From contig CATOTI010000002.1 of the NCBI GenBank assembly GCA_951813295.1, positions 1,736,001 to 1,800,000 of the forward strand: a stretch of DNA of 64,000 bases, written 5' to 3'. The number at the start of each line of letters is the position of its first letter. Position 1 is the stretch's first letter. This DNA comes from an uncultured Pseudomonadales bacterium. Its GTDB lineage: Bacteria > Pseudomonadota > Gammaproteobacteria > Pseudomonadales > Azotimanducaceae. The notes beneath the pieces were generated by a model, which saw only the letters and a program-made list of their open reading frames with translations, did not search any database and was not told the DNA's origin. The position numbers were made by a program, and so were the translations under genes. This document shows, one piece after another, positions 39,260 to 49,069 of this stretch.

Positions 39260-40285
39260 CTACGCGCGCCCTGGATCGTACTCCTCACCACTGCGCAGGA
39301 CTGCCCATGACAGGCGCGCCAGTTTGTTCGCTAACGCCGTGATGATCACGTTCGGGTGCAAGCCCCGCGCCTCAAGGTCATTCAGCCAAACACCTAGGCG
39401 GTGATCCTCCCGGCACAGGTTGTAGTAGCAGCTGCGCGCGCCGTGTATCAGCAGACTCCGAACGTAGCGGTTGCCGCGTTTGCTGATCCCCAGCAATCGC
39501 GTCCGGCCGCCTGTCGAGTGTTGCCGTGGCACCACCCCGAGCCACGCCGATACATCTCGGGCGCGTGTGAACTGCTCACCCTTGCCGATCGCCGCCACCA
39601 ACGCCGTCGATGTCAGCGTGCCAATGCCCGGAATCGTCTGCAGACGCCGGCAGTCATCGCGCTCTCGCGCGATCTGCTCGATCTCCCGGGTAATCGTGCG
39701 AACTTCATCATCTAAGTAACGCCACTGTCGTTGCAGTAATCCCAAAAGCGCGCGTAGACGCCGCGACAATGTGCTCTCGTCGTCCGCCAGTATCGTCGGT
39801 AAGGCCTTCGACAACGCTGTCGGACTCGTGCGCACCGTGATACCTCGCTCCAACAGAAACGCTCGGATCTCGTTGATGACGCTTGTGCGCGTCTTCATGA
39901 GCTGCTGACGGACGCGGTGCAGGGCTTGCTGATCGTGTTGCTCGATCGTCTTGATCGGCACATATCGCATGGTCGGGCGCCGCACCGCCTCCGCAATCGC
40001 CAAGGCGTCGTTGAAGTCGTTCTTGTTGGTCTTCACGTACGGCTTGACGAACTGCGCTGCCATCAATCGAACGTCATGACCGTCGCGTTCAAACTGCCGC
40101 GCCAGGTGTTGTGAACCAGCGCACGCTTCCATGCCGATCACACATCGGCTGTGAGTGGCGACAAACTCAGCAAGCTTCGCTCGGCTGAACTGCTGCCGGA
40201 ACACCGGCTTACCCGTGTGCGTCGTACCGACCACGTGGAAGGTGCTCTTGCCGACATCGATACCTAGGGTCACGATCTGCGTCAT
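39260..40285 (-). CDS. IS110-family transposase (copy 2)
   Basis: The 341-residue protein is the same as that at 22361-23386, with the same start context (ATG at 40285 after AGGAG). It has both the RuvC-like DEDD region and the C-terminal serine domain (GISKRGNRY), so it appears functional. Being intact in both copies, either could drive movement or inversion of the intervening segment by homologous recombination. Confidence 0.93.
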   Translation of the reverse strand: MTQIVTLGIDVGKSTFHVVGTTHTGKPVFRQQFSRAKLAEFVATHSRCVIGMEACAGSQHLARQFERDGHDVRLMAAQFVKPYVKTNKNDFNDALAIAEAVRRPTMRYVPIKTIEQHDQQALHRVRQQLMKTRTSVINEIRAFLLERGITVRTSPTALSKALPTILADDESTLSRRLRALLGLLQRQWRYLDDEVRTITREIEQIARERDDCRRLQTIPGIGTLTSTALVAAIGKGEQFTRARDVSAWLGVVPRQHSTGGRTRLLGISKRGNRYVRSLLIHGARSCYYNLCREDHRLGVWLNDLEARGLHPNVIITALANKLARLSWAVLRSGEEYDPGRA

Positions 40286-40358
40286 GGGATGGTCTCCTCG
40301 AGGGAACGTCGTGTGGGGACACTGATTGTCCACTCGGGGTGGACCATCCCATTAGCAA

Positions 40359-43545: not shown

Positions 43546-44610
43546 CTAGTGCCGACCCGGAAACATCTTCTCGCGCTGCTTCATCATCGACTTCACCCGT
43601 TTGCTGAACTGGCGGCTCCGGTGATGCTGCTCGGCCAGCGATTCGGTGTGGCGCCGCTCTTCACGCTGCATCTTGTAGTACGCGTTGAGCCGTTCTTCCT
43701 CCAACCGCCCGTCGTCGATCGCGGCTTGAATCGCGCAACCCGGCTCCGTGTCGTGCTGGCAGTTCGAGAAACGACACGTTGCCGCGATCGCTTCGACATC
43801 GTCGTAGAGTTCGTCGAGCCCTTCCTCGAGGGCGACGAGGCCCAGCTCGCGCATGCCCGGCACGTCGAGCACGATCGCGCCGTTCTGAAGCTGATGCAGC
43901 GATCGGTGGGTCGTCGTATGACGGCCACGATCGTCCGCCATGGTGCCGCCGGTGTCCTGCAACTCCTCGCCTGCGAGCGTGTTCAGCAAGGTCGACTTGC
44001 CGACCCCGGATGAGCCGAGCAAGGCTAATGTATCGCCGGCACGCACCCACTCCATGAGCCGCGCGACGTCGTCCTGATCGAGCGCGTTCACCGGTTCGAT
44101 CACCGCGTCGCCCGACACCCGACGGGCGAAATCGGCGTATTCCTCCGGATTGTCCGCGAGGTCCGCCTTGGTCAAAACGACCACCGGTTCGACCGACGCG
44201 TCGCGTGCAAGCGTCAAGTAGCGCTGCAGCCGGTTGGCGTTGAACTCCTCGTTACACGACGTCACCACAAAAACCGTGTCGACGTTCGCACCGATCAACT
44301 GCACGTCCAACTTCGATCCGGCGGCCAGGCGTTTGAAAACGCTTTTGCGCGGAATGACGCGATCGATGCGCGTGAACGCGTGATCGACGACGACGAAGTC
44401 GCCGACCGTCGGGCGCTCCTCGGTGGGCCGCTGATACCAGGCGCCGCCGAGTGGTATCTGGGCTTGCCGCGAATCAGTCGCGACCACATGGCCCGTTCGA
44501 TGAATCGCGACCACCCGGGCAACCGCCGACGATTCGTAGTCTTCAAGCGTTAGGTGTTGGGCATAAACCGGGGACCAGCCCCAAGTCGTCAAGTCCAATG
44601 TTTGCTCCAC
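43546..44610 (-). CDS. rsgA: Ribosome small subunit-dependent GTPase A
   Basis: A 354-residue circularly permuted GTPase acting late in 30S subunit maturation. An N-terminal OB fold is followed by TKAD (G4), GSSGVGKSTLLN (G1) near residue 198, HTTTHR (G2) and DVPGM (G3), the permuted order. The zinc site is C-x4-C-x-H-x5-C in CRFSNCQHDTEPGC. The start codon is GTG. It is convergent with the carboxylase gene across the twin-hairpin repeats. Confidence 0.92.
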   Translation of the reverse strand: MEQTLDLTTWGWSPVYAQHLTLEDYESSAVARVVAIHRTGHVVATDSRQAQIPLGGAWYQRPTEERPTVGDFVVVDHAFTRIDRVIPRKSVFKRLAAGSKLDVQLIGANVDTVFVVTSCNEEFNANRLQRYLTLARDASVEPVVVLTKADLADNPEEYADFARRVSGDAVIEPVNALDQDDVARLMEWVRAGDTLALLGSSGVGKSTLLNTLAGEELQDTGGTMADDRGRHTTTHRSLHQLQNGAIVLDVPGMRELGLVALEEGLDELYDDVEAIAATCRFSNCQHDTEPGCAIQAAIDDGRLEEERLNAYYKMQREERRHTESLAEQHHRSRQFSKRVKSMMKQREKMFPGRH

Positions 44611-44907
44611 GCTCGCCTGACGCGAGCTCCGTTTCTTGAAACGGCGTGGCGCTGGGAATGGATCAGGAAGGGCTGATTCGGGATGGAATCAGCGAAGAAC
44701 CGAACCAGGCGCACGCCGGCTTAGCGCGTCGCGATGGACGCGCTTTTCATTGCTGACAATCATCAAAACGCCTCCTTCTCAGGTTCAGTTCTCGAAGAGC
44801 GGCGGAGCATGCGGAAAAAGTGGCACGCTGGCAAGCACAGACGATGTGCACTTTCGTCGAAGGATTCAGTAGGTTGTGGCTTTGATCAGTCGTGAGGGTG
44901 CAACGAC
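44611..44907. other. Intergenic region between divergent rsgA and PhyH genes
   Basis: No gene is credible here. It contains one GCGCTGGGAATGG word also seen in the IS flanks (44649-44661) and a hairpin AGCGCGTC-GCGATG-GACGCGCT followed by TTTC at 44723-44747, which could be a weak plus-strand terminator or an upstream control element for the PhyH gene. No convincing promoter was identified. Confidence 0.5.
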
Positions 44908-45663
44908 ATGCTGAGCGAAACCGAAGTCGAGCAATATCATCGCGACGGTTACGTCATACCCGACTACCGCCTCGACGGCGCGCTGGTCGAGGAAATCAAA
45001 GACGCGCACGATCGCCTGCTCGCCAAACACCCCGAGTTCAGCGACTACTGTCCGGCGTTATTGGCTTTCGATCGTTCTTTCCTGAACGTTGGCCGACATC
45101 CCGACCTCGTCGCGATGGTGGAGCAGCTCATCGGCGCGAATTTCGCACTCTGGAACTCGAGCTTCTTCGCGAAGCCCGCCCAGGTCGGCACCAAGACCCC
45201 GTTTCATCAGGACGGACGCTACTGGCCGATCGAGCCGCTCGCGTCGTGCTCGATCTGGATCGCGATCGACGCGGCGACGACGGAGAACGGCTGCCTGCGT
45301 TTCATACCGGGCACACACAAGAGCCGGGCGCTCGCGCGCCACGATTTCAACGACGCCGACGGCTTGAGCCTGCCGCTCGAGATCGACGCCGACGCTTACG
45401 ACGAGTCGACGGCGGTCGACGTCGTCCTCGAGCCGGGCCAGATCTCGCTACACGACATCTTTCTCGTGCACGGCTCCGAGGCCAATCGCTCGCAAAAGTC
45501 GCGGCGCGGCATGACGCTGCGCTACATGCCGACGAGTTCCGTCTACCGACGCGATCAGACCGACGGGCGCCGAGCCGGGCCGCTCTCGATGGCGGAGCGA
45601 ACGCTCTATCTGATGCGTGGCGGCGACCTCTCGGGCCAGAACGACTTTGTTGTGCGATACTGA
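44908..45663 (+). CDS. Phytanoyl-CoA dioxygenase (PhyH) family protein
   Basis: A 251-residue Fe(II)/2-oxoglutarate dioxygenase. EVEQYHRDGYVIPDYRL is the family N-terminus. Iron ligands HxD are in PFHQDGRYWPI near residue 99-101, and the distal His in SLHDIFLVHGSEANRS near 188-193, with the family Arg further on at RRGMTLRYMP. The enzyme probably hydroxylates an acyl-CoA or a small metabolite. Its stop codon is four bases before the Met-rich leader ORF of metG, so metG may partly depend on transcription from this gene. Confidence 0.87.
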   Translation: MLSETEVEQYHRDGYVIPDYRLDGALVEEIKDAHDRLLAKHPEFSDYCPALLAFDRSFLNVGRHPDLVAMVEQLIGANFALWNSSFFAKPAQVGTKTPFHQDGRYWPIEPLASCSIWIAIDAATTENGCLRFIPGTHKSRALARHDFNDADGLSLPLEIDADAYDESTAVDVVLEPGQISLHDIFLVHGSEANRSQKSRRGMTLRYMPTSSVYRRDQTDGRRAGPLSMAERTLYLMRGGDLSGQNDFVVRY

Positions 45664-45667
45664 GGCC

Positions 45668-45739
45668 ATGAGCGCCATATTCACGACCGTGATGATGATG
45701 AGCATGACCGTTGCCAAGCGGGGATCGCGCTCGACCTAG
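45668..45739 (+). CDS. Met-rich leader peptide of metG (attenuation sensor)
   Basis: A 23-codon ORF (MSAIFTTVMMMSMTV then AKRGSRST-stop) with codons ATG-ATG-ATG-AGC-ATG at 45692-45706. Besides the start, four of 22 residues are Met, clustered as in control peptides of attenuated operons. A GAGG lies at 45662-45665, close to the start; a -10-like GATACT at 45655-45660 might instead give a near-leaderless mRNA. The stop codon is 19 bases before a strong terminator, and the next gene is methionyl-tRNA synthetase. It resembles in design the PheM leader of pheST, with Met in place of Phe. Slow decoding of the Met codons when Met-tRNA is scarce would favour readthrough. Confidence 0.75.
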   Translation: MSAIFTTVMMMSMTVAKRGSRST

Positions 45740-45775
45740 ATACGAACATTTGAATAAGAGCCGGGCCACCCCGCT
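45717..45775 (+). promoter_or_regulatory. Candidate antiterminator pairing of the metG leader
   Basis: AGCGGGG at 45717-45723, within the leader ORF, is exactly complementary to CCCCGCT at 45769-45775. The latter covers part of the terminator's 5' arm and loop, so the two structures exclude each other. A ribosome halted at the Met codons would leave AGCGGGG free; a ribosome that reaches the stop at 45737 would cover it. Pairing was judged by eye and not by an energy calculation. Confidence 0.55.
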
Positions 45776-45797
45776 AGGGGTCGCCCGGCTTTTTTTT
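45759..45797 (+). terminator. Intrinsic terminator in front of metG (attenuator)
   Basis: Arms AGCCGGGC-C-ACCCC and GGGGT-C-GCCCGGCT pair around a GCTA loop, 13 base pairs with one C-C mismatch, followed by eight T at 45790-45797. The strong stem plus T tract would stop most transcripts 43 bases before the metG start, while there is no upstream gene reason for a terminator at this exact point other than PhyH itself. Confidence 0.9.
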
Positions 45798-45839
45798 GCG
45801 CGGGCGAAAGGTCCCTCGAACATCCAGAGGACTCACGCC

Positions 45840-47279
45840 ATGTCAGATTTTGTTTCCACGACGATTCCCTACGTCAACGGCGCGCCGCACATCGGCCATG
45901 CGCAGGAGTTCGTCATCACCGACACGCTCGCACGCTATCGGCGGCAGCGCGGATCCGTTCACCTGCAATCGGGTTCCGACGAAAACAGCCTGAAGAACGT
46001 CATCGCTGCCGAGGCAATCGACGAACCGACCGCGGTGCTCGTTGCGCACCACGCGGCGAACTTCGAGCACCTTGCGGCGACGCTCGGCCTCGAATGCGAC
46101 GCTTTTGTGCGCACGAGCACCGATGCTGATCATCGCGCGACCGTCGAAGCACTATGGTCGGCGTGCGATGCGCGCGGTGACATCACGAAAGCCGACTACA
46201 TCGGGCGCTACTGCGTCGGTTGCGAGCAGTTCTACCGGGACAATGAGCTCGATGACGGCCGATGTCCGGAACACCTCACCGTCCCCGAAGAGATTCGCGA
46301 GGTGAATTACTTCTTTCGCCTCGATCGTTATCAGCAAGCGCTGATCGAAGCGATCGAGTCGGGCCAACTACGCATCGAACCCCCCGCCAAACGAAACGAG
46401 ATTCTCGGCTTTCTGCGTGAACCGCTGGAACCGCTTTCGATCTCGAGAGACGCGGCGCGTTCTCGTGGGTGGGGGATCCCCGTCCCGGGTGACGAGAGCC
46501 AGGTGATTTATGTCTGGTTCGATGCGCTCGTGAACTACGTCGCAGGGCCTTCGCGCGAAGCCTGGGAACAGTTCGACCGTGTAAGTCACGTCGTCGGCAA
46601 AGGCGTATCGAGGTTTCACGCCGTCTACTGGCCCGCGATGCTCCTCTCCGCGGGATGGCGGCTGCCCGACGAGATCCTGGTGCACAACTACGTCACAGTC
46701 GACGGACAGAAGATCGGGAAATCCCTCGGTAACGCCGTATCACCGTTCGACGTGATCGCCCGTCACGGCGTAGACGCGTTCCGCTACTACCTCTTGCGTC
46801 ACGTAGGCTGTTTCCGCGATGGCGACTTCACCTACGAGCGTTTCGACGCTGTCTACGATGCCGATCTCGCCAATCAGCTCGGCAATCTCGTGGCGCGTCT
46901 GTGCGGACTGGCGCGGGGCATCACGCTGCCAGGGGCTTCGTCATCGCCGGGGTTCGCCGAGGCGCTCAACCGGGGCATCGACGACGCCGTCATTTCCTTT
47001 GCGCTACACCGCGCCGTCGAGCGGATCTGGGATGCGATCGAGACGATCAACCGGGGCTTGAGTCAGAGCGAGCCCTGGCGACGCAAGCCGGCCGAGAAAG
47101 CGAGCATCGTCGCAACGGCACTTGCGGATCTCACGACCATCGCGAAGGCGCTCGAGCCATTCCTGCCCGACACCGCCCGTCGCATTCAGGCCTCGATCGC
47201 GCCGGATGGGCTCGCGACCAAACAGCCGCCGCTCTTTCCGCGAATCGACAAGAATCGGGAACGACCGTGCGTTGCATGA
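45840..47279 (+). CDS. metG: Methionyl-tRNA synthetase, short form
   Basis: A 479-residue class I aminoacyl-tRNA synthetase that charges tRNA-Met. The HIGH motif is at residues 17-20 (PHIGHAQ). A single zinc knuckle is CVGC near 124-127 with CPEH near 143-146. The KMSKS loop reads KIGKS in GQKIGKSLGNAV near 290. The anticodon-binding helix bundle ends the protein; the C-terminal tRNA-binding extension of the ~670-residue enteric enzyme is absent. The ATG at 45840 has AGAGGA upstream and follows the leader peptide and terminator. The shorter form with a changed KMSKS suggests either the lineage's main enzyme or a second, possibly inhibitor-tolerant, copy. Confidence 0.92.
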   Translation: MSDFVSTTIPYVNGAPHIGHAQEFVITDTLARYRRQRGSVHLQSGSDENSLKNVIAAEAIDEPTAVLVAHHAANFEHLAATLGLECDAFVRTSTDADHRATVEALWSACDARGDITKADYIGRYCVGCEQFYRDNELDDGRCPEHLTVPEEIREVNYFFRLDRYQQALIEAIESGQLRIEPPAKRNEILGFLREPLEPLSISRDAARSRGWGIPVPGDESQVIYVWFDALVNYVAGPSREAWEQFDRVSHVVGKGVSRFHAVYWPAMLLSAGWRLPDEILVHNYVTVDGQKIGKSLGNAVSPFDVIARHGVDAFRYYLLRHVGCFRDGDFTYERFDAVYDADLANQLGNLVARLCGLARGITLPGASSSPGFAEALNRGIDDAVISFALHRAVERIWDAIETINRGLSQSEPWRRKPAEKASIVATALADLTTIAKALEPFLPDTARRIQASIAPDGLATKQPPLFPRIDKNRERPCVA

Positions 47280-47306
47280 GCCGATCTCATTGCCGCGATC
47301 TGTCCT

Positions 47307-48134
47307 CTACGACAGCGTTTTCGCGACCGCCGCGGCGAAACCATCGCGCGCGGCGCGTTCGCCGTCGAGCGCGAAGTTCTGCCACGCAGCACCACGTTTC
47401 ATTGCCGGGTTCGCGTAGTCGAAATTGACGAAGTGAAGGCCGACACCCGCGCGGCCCGTGTCCGTCGGATTGGGCCCCGTCGAGTGGGGGGTACCGAAGG
47501 AAAAGAAAACGACACCGCCCGCGGCCAGTTCACACTCGACGGCATCCTGGGCATCGATGTAGGTGCGGATGTGGTGATCGCTGGCCGGGTCACGCTCGTG
47601 CATCAGCGTGTCGTTGAACCGGTCGGGCAGCACCTTGAGCGTGCCATTCGCCTGATCGGCATCGTGAATCGCGATCCACATCGCACAACCGCGAAGGGGT
47701 TCGTTGATCTGGAAGTAGGCGTTATCCGTGTGCCAGCTCGTCCCCATGCCGGTGCCGGGCGGCTTGTAGAACATCTGATCGAGGATCTTGACGACGGGTT
47801 CGCCGAGTAAAGCCGTCACCGCATCGCGGACCTTCCTCGAGAACGGCAGCGCCTTGAAAAGATCGCTGTGCGGGAAAAGCGGGATGAGCTGCAGATTCTC
47901 GTCTTTCTCCGCGATGGCGACGTCACGCGGCAGTCCGCCTTCGATGAACCCCGCAACTTCCCGCTGCAGGGCTTCGGTTTCGTCCGGTTCGAAAAACCCC
48001 GGCACGATGGTATAACCGTGGCGTCGATACTCGGCGACCTGGCCACGGGTCAACGGGCCGTCTGCATCGATCATGTCGGTCGAGTCGGTTGTTACCTCGG
48101 TCGACTGATCCGCGTTGGTCTGATCTGAATTCAT
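47307..48134 (-). CDS. Phytanoyl-CoA dioxygenase (PhyH) family protein
   Basis: A 275-residue Fe(II)/2-oxoglutarate dioxygenase. TRGQVAEYRRHGYTIVPGFFEPDE is the family N-terminus, preceded by a polar stretch rich in Thr, Asp and Ser. HxD is in TSWHTDNAYFQ near 140-142; the distal His is in SFGTPHSTGPNPTD and the 2-oxoglutarate Arg in GRAGVGLHFV. The ATG at 48134 lacks a clear SD. It is convergent with metG and divergent, over only 50 bp, from the SDR at 48185. Confidence 0.87.
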   Translation of the reverse strand: MNSDQTNADQSTEVTTDSTDMIDADGPLTRGQVAEYRRHGYTIVPGFFEPDETEALQREVAGFIEGGLPRDVAIAEKDENLQLIPLFPHSDLFKALPFSRKVRDAVTALLGEPVVKILDQMFYKPPGTGMGTSWHTDNAYFQINEPLRGCAMWIAIHDADQANGTLKVLPDRFNDTLMHERDPASDHHIRTYIDAQDAVECELAAGGVVFFSFGTPHSTGPNPTDTGRAGVGLHFVNFDYANPAMKRGAAWQNFALDGERAARDGFAAAVAKTLS

Positions 48135-48184
48135 GGGCGAGATGGGCGGTTGAACCGCCCGAAATTGTACGAGCAAGGGGAAAC

Positions 48185-49069
48185 ATGAGCGAATTCGAAG
48201 GGAAAGTAGCCGTCATCACCGGCGCGGGTGGAGGGATTGGTCGTTGCCACGCGATCGAGTTCGCGAAGCGGGGCGCCAAAGTGGTCGTCAACGACCTCGG
48301 CGGCAGCGTCGATGGCACCGGCGCCAGCGATGCGGCGGATCAGGTGGTCGACGAGCTGAAGGCCATGGGCGCGGAGGCGATCGCGAACAAGGCATCGGTT
48401 GCCGATCGCGACGGTGCCAAGTCGATCATCGACGATGCCGTCAACGCGTTTGGTCGCGTCGACATCCTCGTCAACAACGCTGGCATCCTGCGCGACAAAA
48501 CGTTCAAGAAAATGTCGCTTGATGAGTTCGACCTCGTGATGCAGGTGCACCTGACCGGTTCCGCCTACGTCACGCACGCGGCGTGGCAGCACATGTACGA
48601 GCAGCGCTACGGGCGCATCGTCCTGACGAGCTCGGGATCGGGCATCTTCGGCAACTTCGGTCAGTCGAACTACGGTGCCGCGAAGATGGCGATGCTAGGT
48701 CTCGCGAACGTGCTCGCGCTCGAAGGCGCGAACCGCAACGTGCGTGTGAATTGCCTGGGACCGGGCGCCGCCACGCGGATGACCAACACCGTGCCGGGAC
48801 GAGACGAAGATCTGTCCGAGCCGGATCCCGAGCGCCATCCGTCACTGGTGAGCCCGGCGGTGCTTTTTATGTGCAGCGAAGATGCGCCGAACGGGGCCGT
48901 CATCCATGCTTCCGGCGGTAGCTATTTCCGAAGCGAAGTATGGGTCAACGATTCCGTCGACCTGGGTTCCGAGGCGACCTTCGAAGACCTTCTCGAGCAC
49001 ACGGACAAGCTGCTCGACATGTCGGCGGCACATCCGCGAGCACCGCGCGCGCCGCGACCCCGGAGCTGA
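48185..49069 (+). CDS. SDR-family oxidoreductase (MFE-2/hydroxyacyl-CoA dehydrogenase-like)
   Basis: A 294-residue classical SDR. KVAVITGAGGGIGRCHAIEFAKRGAKVVVNDLGG is typical of the peroxisomal multifunctional enzyme 2 type, which oxidises 3-hydroxyacyl-CoA. NNAG, Ser in SSGSGIFGNFGQ and Tyr-x3-Lys as YGAAK are all present. The ATG at 48185 has AGGGGA upstream. It extends about 30 residues past the usual end with a proline-rich tail. Its divergence from a PhyH gene suggests a joint role in branched acyl-CoA oxidation, which is inference. Confidence 0.86.
   Translation: MSEFEGKVAVITGAGGGIGRCHAIEFAKRGAKVVVNDLGGSVDGTGASDAADQVVDELKAMGAEAIANKASVADRDGAKSIIDDAVNAFGRVDILVNNAGILRDKTFKKMSLDEFDLVMQVHLTGSAYVTHAAWQHMYEQRYGRIVLTSSGSGIFGNFGQSNYGAAKMAMLGLANVLALEGANRNVRVNCLGPGAATRMTNTVPGRDEDLSEPDPERHPSLVSPAVLFMCSEDAPNGAVIHASGGSYFRSEVWVNDSVDLGSEATFEDLLEHTDKLLDMSAAHPRAPRAPRPRS

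Follow-up and report, generated by a model that had tools for sequence, protein, structure and literature searches.

The DNA window analysed here, a stretch of 64,000 nucleotides from an uncultured bacterium of the Azotimanducaceae (Pseudomonadales), belongs to a genome of 5.97 Mb, in which its contig measures 4.36 Mb. The 16S rRNA of this genome shares 85.4% identity with the E. coli one, as fits a gammaproteobacterium. The gene under study, metG, codes for a methionyl-tRNA synthetase (MetRS) of 479 amino acids, the best solved-structure matches of which are MetRS chains. It is located between two PhyH-family genes, at 44908-45663 (+) and 47307-48176 (-), and an IS110-type transposase gene at 39260-40333 (-) precedes the leader by some 5-6 kb. 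Another MetRS is encoded in the same genome by a 667-aa frame, with no Met cluster (at least two ATG within five codons) upstream.

A short leader precedes metG (Table 1). The sequence-only reading of this DNA had described a 23-codon ORF with ATG-ATG-ATG-AGC-ATG (45668-45739), a strong intrinsic terminator with eight T (45759-45797), then metG at 45840, and exact complementarity between AGCGGGG (45717-45723) and CCCCGCT (45769-45775). All these parts are present, their coordinates are right, and the observation was confirmed base for base. The pattern ATGATGATGNNNATG has a single occurrence in the window and none in 100 shuffles. The leader fold has a z of -3.5 versus chance, a value in which the strong terminator is counted.

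Table 1. Features of the metG locus (window positions) and SAM-II-like elements found near metG in relatives (positions within the named loci).
Feature	Position	Strand	Remarks
PhyH-family gene upstream	44908..45663	+	Outside the leader-metG unit; end overlaps the predicted promoter
Predicted (presumably extended) -10 element TGC GATACT	45653..45661	+	Overlaps the PhyH gene end; 6-nt spacer between GATACT and the leader ATG
Leader peptide uORF, MSAIFTTVMMMSMTVAKRGSRST*	45668..45739	+	23 codons; predicted transcription start at its own ATG (putatively leaderless)
Regulatory Met codons ATG ATG ATG AGC ATG (putative)	45692..45706	+	Codons 9-11 and 13; Met clusters in relatives
Segment 1, CCGTT	45708..45712	+	Predicted partner of AGCGG 45717-45721 when the ribosome is absent
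Segment 2, AGCGGGGATCGCGCTC, antiterminator 5' half	45717..45732	+	Predicted fold; two double changes between window and L010
Segment 3, GAGC...CCCCGCT	45758..45775	+	Common to antiterminator and terminator (predicted fold)
Intrinsic terminator (segments 3:4), eight T	45758..45797	+	Hairpin about -30 kcal/mol
Shine-Dalgarno-like AGAGGA of metG	45826..45831	+	8 nt upstream of the metG ATG
Second methionyl-tRNA synthetase gene (metG)	45840..47279	+	479 aa, MetRS1-like; HIGH and KIGKS
SAM-II-like aptamers	L014:1244-1316, L016:1287-1362, L151:3000-3078, L152:1150-1226		RF00521, below cut-off

Conservation of the Met run in relatives had been set beforehand as a test of the attenuator reading. MetRS genes were placed by tblastn, and the 260 nt upstream were scored for ATG clusters inside short ORFs; L048 and L148, with no usable upstream stretch, were excluded. 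All six loci of the nearest set (window included) have two or more clustered ATG, and in four of them the count is three or higher. In the same family, a second group of MetRS has three or more in 6/7 loci, and among relatives from named genomes the counts are 43/79 (two or more) and 23/79 (three or more). The controls gave low values: two clustered ATG were found in 3/29 alphaproteobacterial housekeeping MetRS loci, in 1/27 from Actinomycetota and in 1/22 canonical MetRS loci of the window's family and order, with three or more in none of these three sets. Canonical MetRS genes from the same genomes (30 loci, a set that partly repeats the relatives' loci) yielded one case with two Met and none with three. 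Among the 36 relatives without a Met cluster, 20 are recorded under names of candidate-phylum groups such as Parcubacteria, Uhrbacteria and Patescibacteria.

In a tree of 118 rows (FastTree, midpoint root), the Met leaders are concentrated in a MetRS clade of 44 rows (support 97), in which 38 members have two or more clustered ATG and 17 have three or more; among the relatives from named genomes, four with a Met cluster lie outside it (L054, L074, L102, L117). The second Met-leader lineage forms a separate group of 6 (support 100), with L153 outside. Six of the 44 clade members have no Met cluster (L055, L045, L085, L066, L068 and L044). The absence from L068 (Kutzneria) was looked at more closely, and that from L066 by eye; in L068, long ORFs on the metG strand stop 11-33 nt short of metG, which may therefore be part of an operon there. 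When clusters of each of the 61 sense codons were counted in the clade, ATG ranked first (38/44), followed by CCG and GCG with 12 each; in 56 housekeeping loci ATG comes 32nd. A count by amino acid gives a smaller contrast (Met 38/44, Arg 36/44, Ala 30/44); Arg and Ala have many codons, and frequent clusters of them are to be expected where the DNA is GC-rich. Of 85 upstream regions, 26 have three ATG within five codons versus 0.08 expected in shuffles, in a set that includes near-copies, for example the Frankia loci, and L014 scored on the wrong strand.

Leader-bearing members are recorded under the names Rhizobium, Methylocapsa, Frankia, Crossiella, Nocardiopsis, Gaiella, Polyangiaceae, Kofleriaceae and Chloroflexi, which we take to represent at least four phyla. 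That the device is not confined to proteobacteria was something the sequence-only reading had not seen. The leader sequences have diverged, while the Met run and the hairpins recur.

The same loci bear on a simpler explanation, namely that the hairpin is an ordinary terminator of the PhyH gene, the short ORF occurs by chance and the metG promoter lies after the terminator. Such terminators are common, the same-strand PhyH gene stops at 45663, with 95 nt between it and the hairpin, and the longest upstream ORF is on the metG strand in 7/16 loci, the window included. However, the unit recurs in the other 9/16 loci (4/6 of the nearest ones included), where the longest ORF upstream, within the stretch retrieved, runs opposite to metG. 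Five of six such opposite-strand ORFs, from both Met-leader lineages, were scanned against Pfam, and all five matched a family. The gap from the T run to metG is only 42 nt, with no promoter listed within it, and Met clustering exceeds both shuffles and controls. We therefore rejected a plain PhyH terminator on account of the opposite-strand loci, and give the whole explanation a very slim chance of being right.

The element preceding the leader ORF, which we take to be an extended -10, has no -35 match; a simple sigma-70 scan listed no promoter within 44000-48500, probably because of the missing -35. To place such boxes in relatives, the leader start was defined as the nearest in-frame ATG or GTG at least six codons before the cluster, and a -10-like hexamer as 4 of 6 matches to TATAAT, with A at position 2 and T at position 6. 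Fifty leaders were obtained from 59 loci, after dropping six without a cluster and three near-copies. In 23 of them such a hexamer is separated from the leader start by 6 or 7 nt, with 6 hits over the other 29 spacings (0 to 30); Frankia accounts for 9 of the 23, so that the independent cases are fewer, and the start rule is doubtful for some loci (a GTG inside the leader in L060, which is among the 23, and a different ORF in L015). With starts chosen by hand, the box is found at 6-7 nt in 15/35. A spacing of 6-7 nt between the -10 and the start codon would mean a leaderless mRNA. The position of the -10-like box hence suggests that the leader ORF has its own promoter and is leaderless.

We then considered the RNA. 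Segment 2 begins 10 nt past the last Met codon of the run, and the edge of a ribosome footprint lies about 15 nt beyond the P site. Growing transcripts were folded with the RNA free from 45717, that is, with a ribosome stalled on the Met run. The predicted antiterminator pairing continues beyond AGCGGGG:CCCCGCT, with GCTC (45729-45732) pairing with GAGC (45758-45761). For transcripts ending at 45777 and 45783 the antiterminator is the minimum free energy structure (-21.0 kcal/mol), and from 45790 onwards the terminator beats it; at 45797 the values are -36.3 kcal/mol for the terminator versus -25.6 kcal/mol with the antiterminator enforced. With the terminator favoured by about 10 kcal/mol, an attenuator switch must, in this model, be kinetic. 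For the RNA without a ribosome, the predicted fold pairs GAGCGC, near the 5' end, with segment 2 (GCGCTC) and contains the terminator. The predicted fold agrees with the earlier proposal of an antiterminator that competes for the terminator arm. A simple terminator scan did not list the window hairpin, probably because of an interior mismatch in its stem.

Pairing was compared with shuffles in two ways. The test restricted to the terminator arm covered 22 loci with T-run terminators, or with a hand-set hairpin in the case of L011, and its Met-run anchors were placed by hand. The window antiterminator duplex has p 0.007 here versus a z of only -0.18 in the unrestricted pairing test. In the restricted test 14/22 loci fall below 0.05 and 8/22 miss it; values for the nearest set are 0.007, 0.126, 0.004, 0.029, 0.025 and 0.045, five of six below 0.05, with L149 at 0.126. 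The reversed sequence pairs better in 4/22 loci (L013, L188, L015 and L016). The unrestricted test, applied to 31 loci, gave a Stouffer value of -4.55 versus -1.18 for the control region, with z below -1 in 12/31 loci and above 0 in 10/31.

The check for the AGCGGGG:CCCCGCT pairing in relatives likewise spoke for the attenuator reading. L010 keeps all seven pairs, and two of them are changed on both sides relative to the window (A-T to T-A and C-G to T-A); for L149 to keep seven, the register must shift by two bases and two of the pairs must be G-U. Alphaproteobacterial loci display a textbook pattern, ATGATGATG CCGCTCTCC...GAAGCGG...GCCGCTTC...GAGGCGGC TTTTTT. The RNAalifold covariation terms are small, and the pairs of the alphaproteobacterial set hardly vary.

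It could also be argued that the leader peptide acts on metG translation, or through Rho, and not via a terminator. Judged by eye, the leaders of Frankia, Crossiella and Thermoleophilia have no T tract, and because of this the outcome may be translational in these actinobacterial loci; in addition, G-rich stretches near the metG Shine-Dalgarno sequence could, again by eye, pair with segment 3. As a general explanation we consider this quite unlikely, since a T run continues the hairpin in the window, in 5/6 nearest loci and in those alphaproteobacterial loci that were inspected; L011 has a T run separated from its hairpin.

The second Met-leader lineage has a different architecture. In L014, L150, L015, L016, L151 and L152, RNAalifold gives a hairpin at the Met codons, then a second hairpin and then the terminator; a T run is present in 5/6 and absent from L151. 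In the five T-run loci pairing is possible between the terminator arm and the 3' side of the second hairpin, with p < 0.05 in two (L150 and L152). The Met leader of L016 (2919-3055, - strand) matches the Rfam family His_leader (RF00514) with 37.4 bits (E 0.006, cut-off 49) over its whole three-hairpin plan, and that of L152 (2818-2931, - strand) with 27.9 bits against the same cut-off; the window's own leader has no His_leader match. Unlike His_leader, the L016 leader has Met codons instead of His codons and precedes metG, not a his operon. From their sequences, the L016 and L152 leaders look as if a histidine attenuator had been recoded for Met.

In 4/6 loci of this architecture a cystathionine gamma-synthase family gene follows metG, and SAM-II-like aptamers (30.6-35.9 bits, cut-off 36) precede such genes; the fetched stretches of L150 and L015 have no SAM-II-like element. 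Since methionine genes elsewhere use SAM riboswitches, and such an element lies beside metG in four relatives, though before the neighbouring gene, the leader might be thought to bind a small molecule such as SAM, or a protein, the Met-rich ORF being incidental. This is contradicted by the Rfam search, which at gathering score returned no leader in the window or in 20 loci, and a single tRNA in the 20, and by the divergence of the sequences apart from Met run and hairpins; the position of the -10 box, moreover, fits leaderless translation. A binding leader of this kind is, in our opinion, extremely improbable. No covariance-model match to a SAM riboswitch or a T-box was found, the window region giving only three sub-threshold sRNA matches, and a known RNA family was ruled out as the identity of the leader, as no Rfam leader family reached the cut-off.

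A Met-codon leader ORF, an intrinsic terminator (in the T-run loci) and, in the predicted fold, a mutually exclusive antiterminator are thus found together, and the comparison with relatives supports the earlier interpretation of leader and terminator as an attenuator. We consider it highly probable that the second MetRS gene is controlled by its leader through ribosome-mediated transcription attenuation, with charged elongator Met-tRNA as the signal sensed. Transcription would start at the leader ATG. With ample Met-tRNA, the ribosome would reach the leader stop codon and cover segment 2, so that the 3:4 terminator forms and metG is not transcribed. With Met-tRNA scarce, a ribosome stalled on the Met run would leave segment 2 free to pair with segment 3 before segment 4 is made; the terminator would come late and polymerase would enter metG. 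With no ribosome at all, the 5' end would sequester segment 2, and formation of the terminator would follow. The gene is thus probably turned on when charged methionine tRNA is low, and the second MetRS would be a conditional enzyme for Met-tRNA shortage. Because a Met-starved cell is also without initiator fMet-tRNA, translation of the leader may come to a halt under deep starvation, with termination as the result.

A second MetRS beside a housekeeping copy is true of the window genome and not universal in the clade: two or more MetRS are listed in 23/30 clade genomes searched and one in 7/30 (three Frankia, Crossiella L041, L040, L055 and L084), in a count that includes several incomplete assemblies and leaves weak matches outside the listing. 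As the attenuated gene is the only MetRS among the matches listed in the three Frankia genomes, a back-up enzyme cannot be the whole story. Among genomes of the window's family, a relative of the window metG (E 1e-60) was found in 13/206, the window's own included, and in 0/15 of the same genus; the gene was therefore probably acquired, or else lost from relatives. In the protein, clade members have L for the housekeeping MetRS1 Y at position 22 (34/44), N for H at position 49 (36/44) and G for D at position 255 (41/44); the window MetRS has Q, N and G, and N49 is also present in 12/20 candidate-phylum MetRS. These residues make an altered active site possible in the attenuated group, and we would guess at resistance to a natural inhibitor.

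Methionine is usually sensed by SAM riboswitches, T-boxes or MetJ/MetR. The proposed mechanism would work like trp/his attenuation, and most like that of the auxiliary trpRS1. In 2010, Vecchione and Sello (J Bacteriol 192:3565) reportedly described an auxiliary tryptophanyl-tRNA synthetase gene with a ribosome-mediated attenuator; this is presumably the Streptomyces trpRS1 associated with indolmycin. Both cases share a second synthetase copy and attenuation through leader translation; unlike trpRS1, the metG device would sense Met instead of Trp, extends over several phyla, is probably leaderless and has no antibiotic linked to it. Two MetRS genes in one cell are also said, in work by Gentry from 2003, to occur in S. 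pneumoniae, with variable sensitivity to MetRS inhibitors.

Proteobacterial attenuators of the trp/his/pheST class have regulatory codons, segments 1-2-3-4 and a terminator (PMC1183508, PMC1262725), as does the metG leader, which differs from them in a predicted transcription start that coincides with the start codon and in its Met specificity. The portions of these two papers that were available describe no Met version. For Actinobacteria, the available part of a survey gives classical attenuators before trpS and leuS in Streptomyces, which the metG leaders resemble as classical attenuation of synthetase genes in that group, and finds no conserved RNA structure upstream of methionine operons (PMC1262725). 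Titles and abstract openings of the papers listed by the literature searches contained no Met-codon metG attenuator, the survey of Lopatovskaya 2010 being outside this coverage. The metG attenuator is, on these comparisons, a real, widespread and apparently undescribed variant of a known mechanism.

We lean towards the view that leaderless Met-codon attenuators define a broad regulatory class for MetRS genes, in which one lineage extends across at least four phyla with its RNA rewritten, and which recurs in another lineage, perhaps via a recoded histidine leader, the attenuated gene being in Frankia the sole MetRS seen. The finding is broader than the sequence-only reading supposed, in that it concerns a second copy, is probably leaderless and reaches beyond proteobacteria. 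A translation-based sensor of Met is paradoxical, as translation itself begins with Met; if the mechanism is true, discrimination between shortage of elongator and of initiator Met-tRNA becomes testable. The metG leader would be a natural reporter for Met-tRNA charging, and for soil bacteria, among them Rhizobium and Frankia, it points towards a conditional MetRS.
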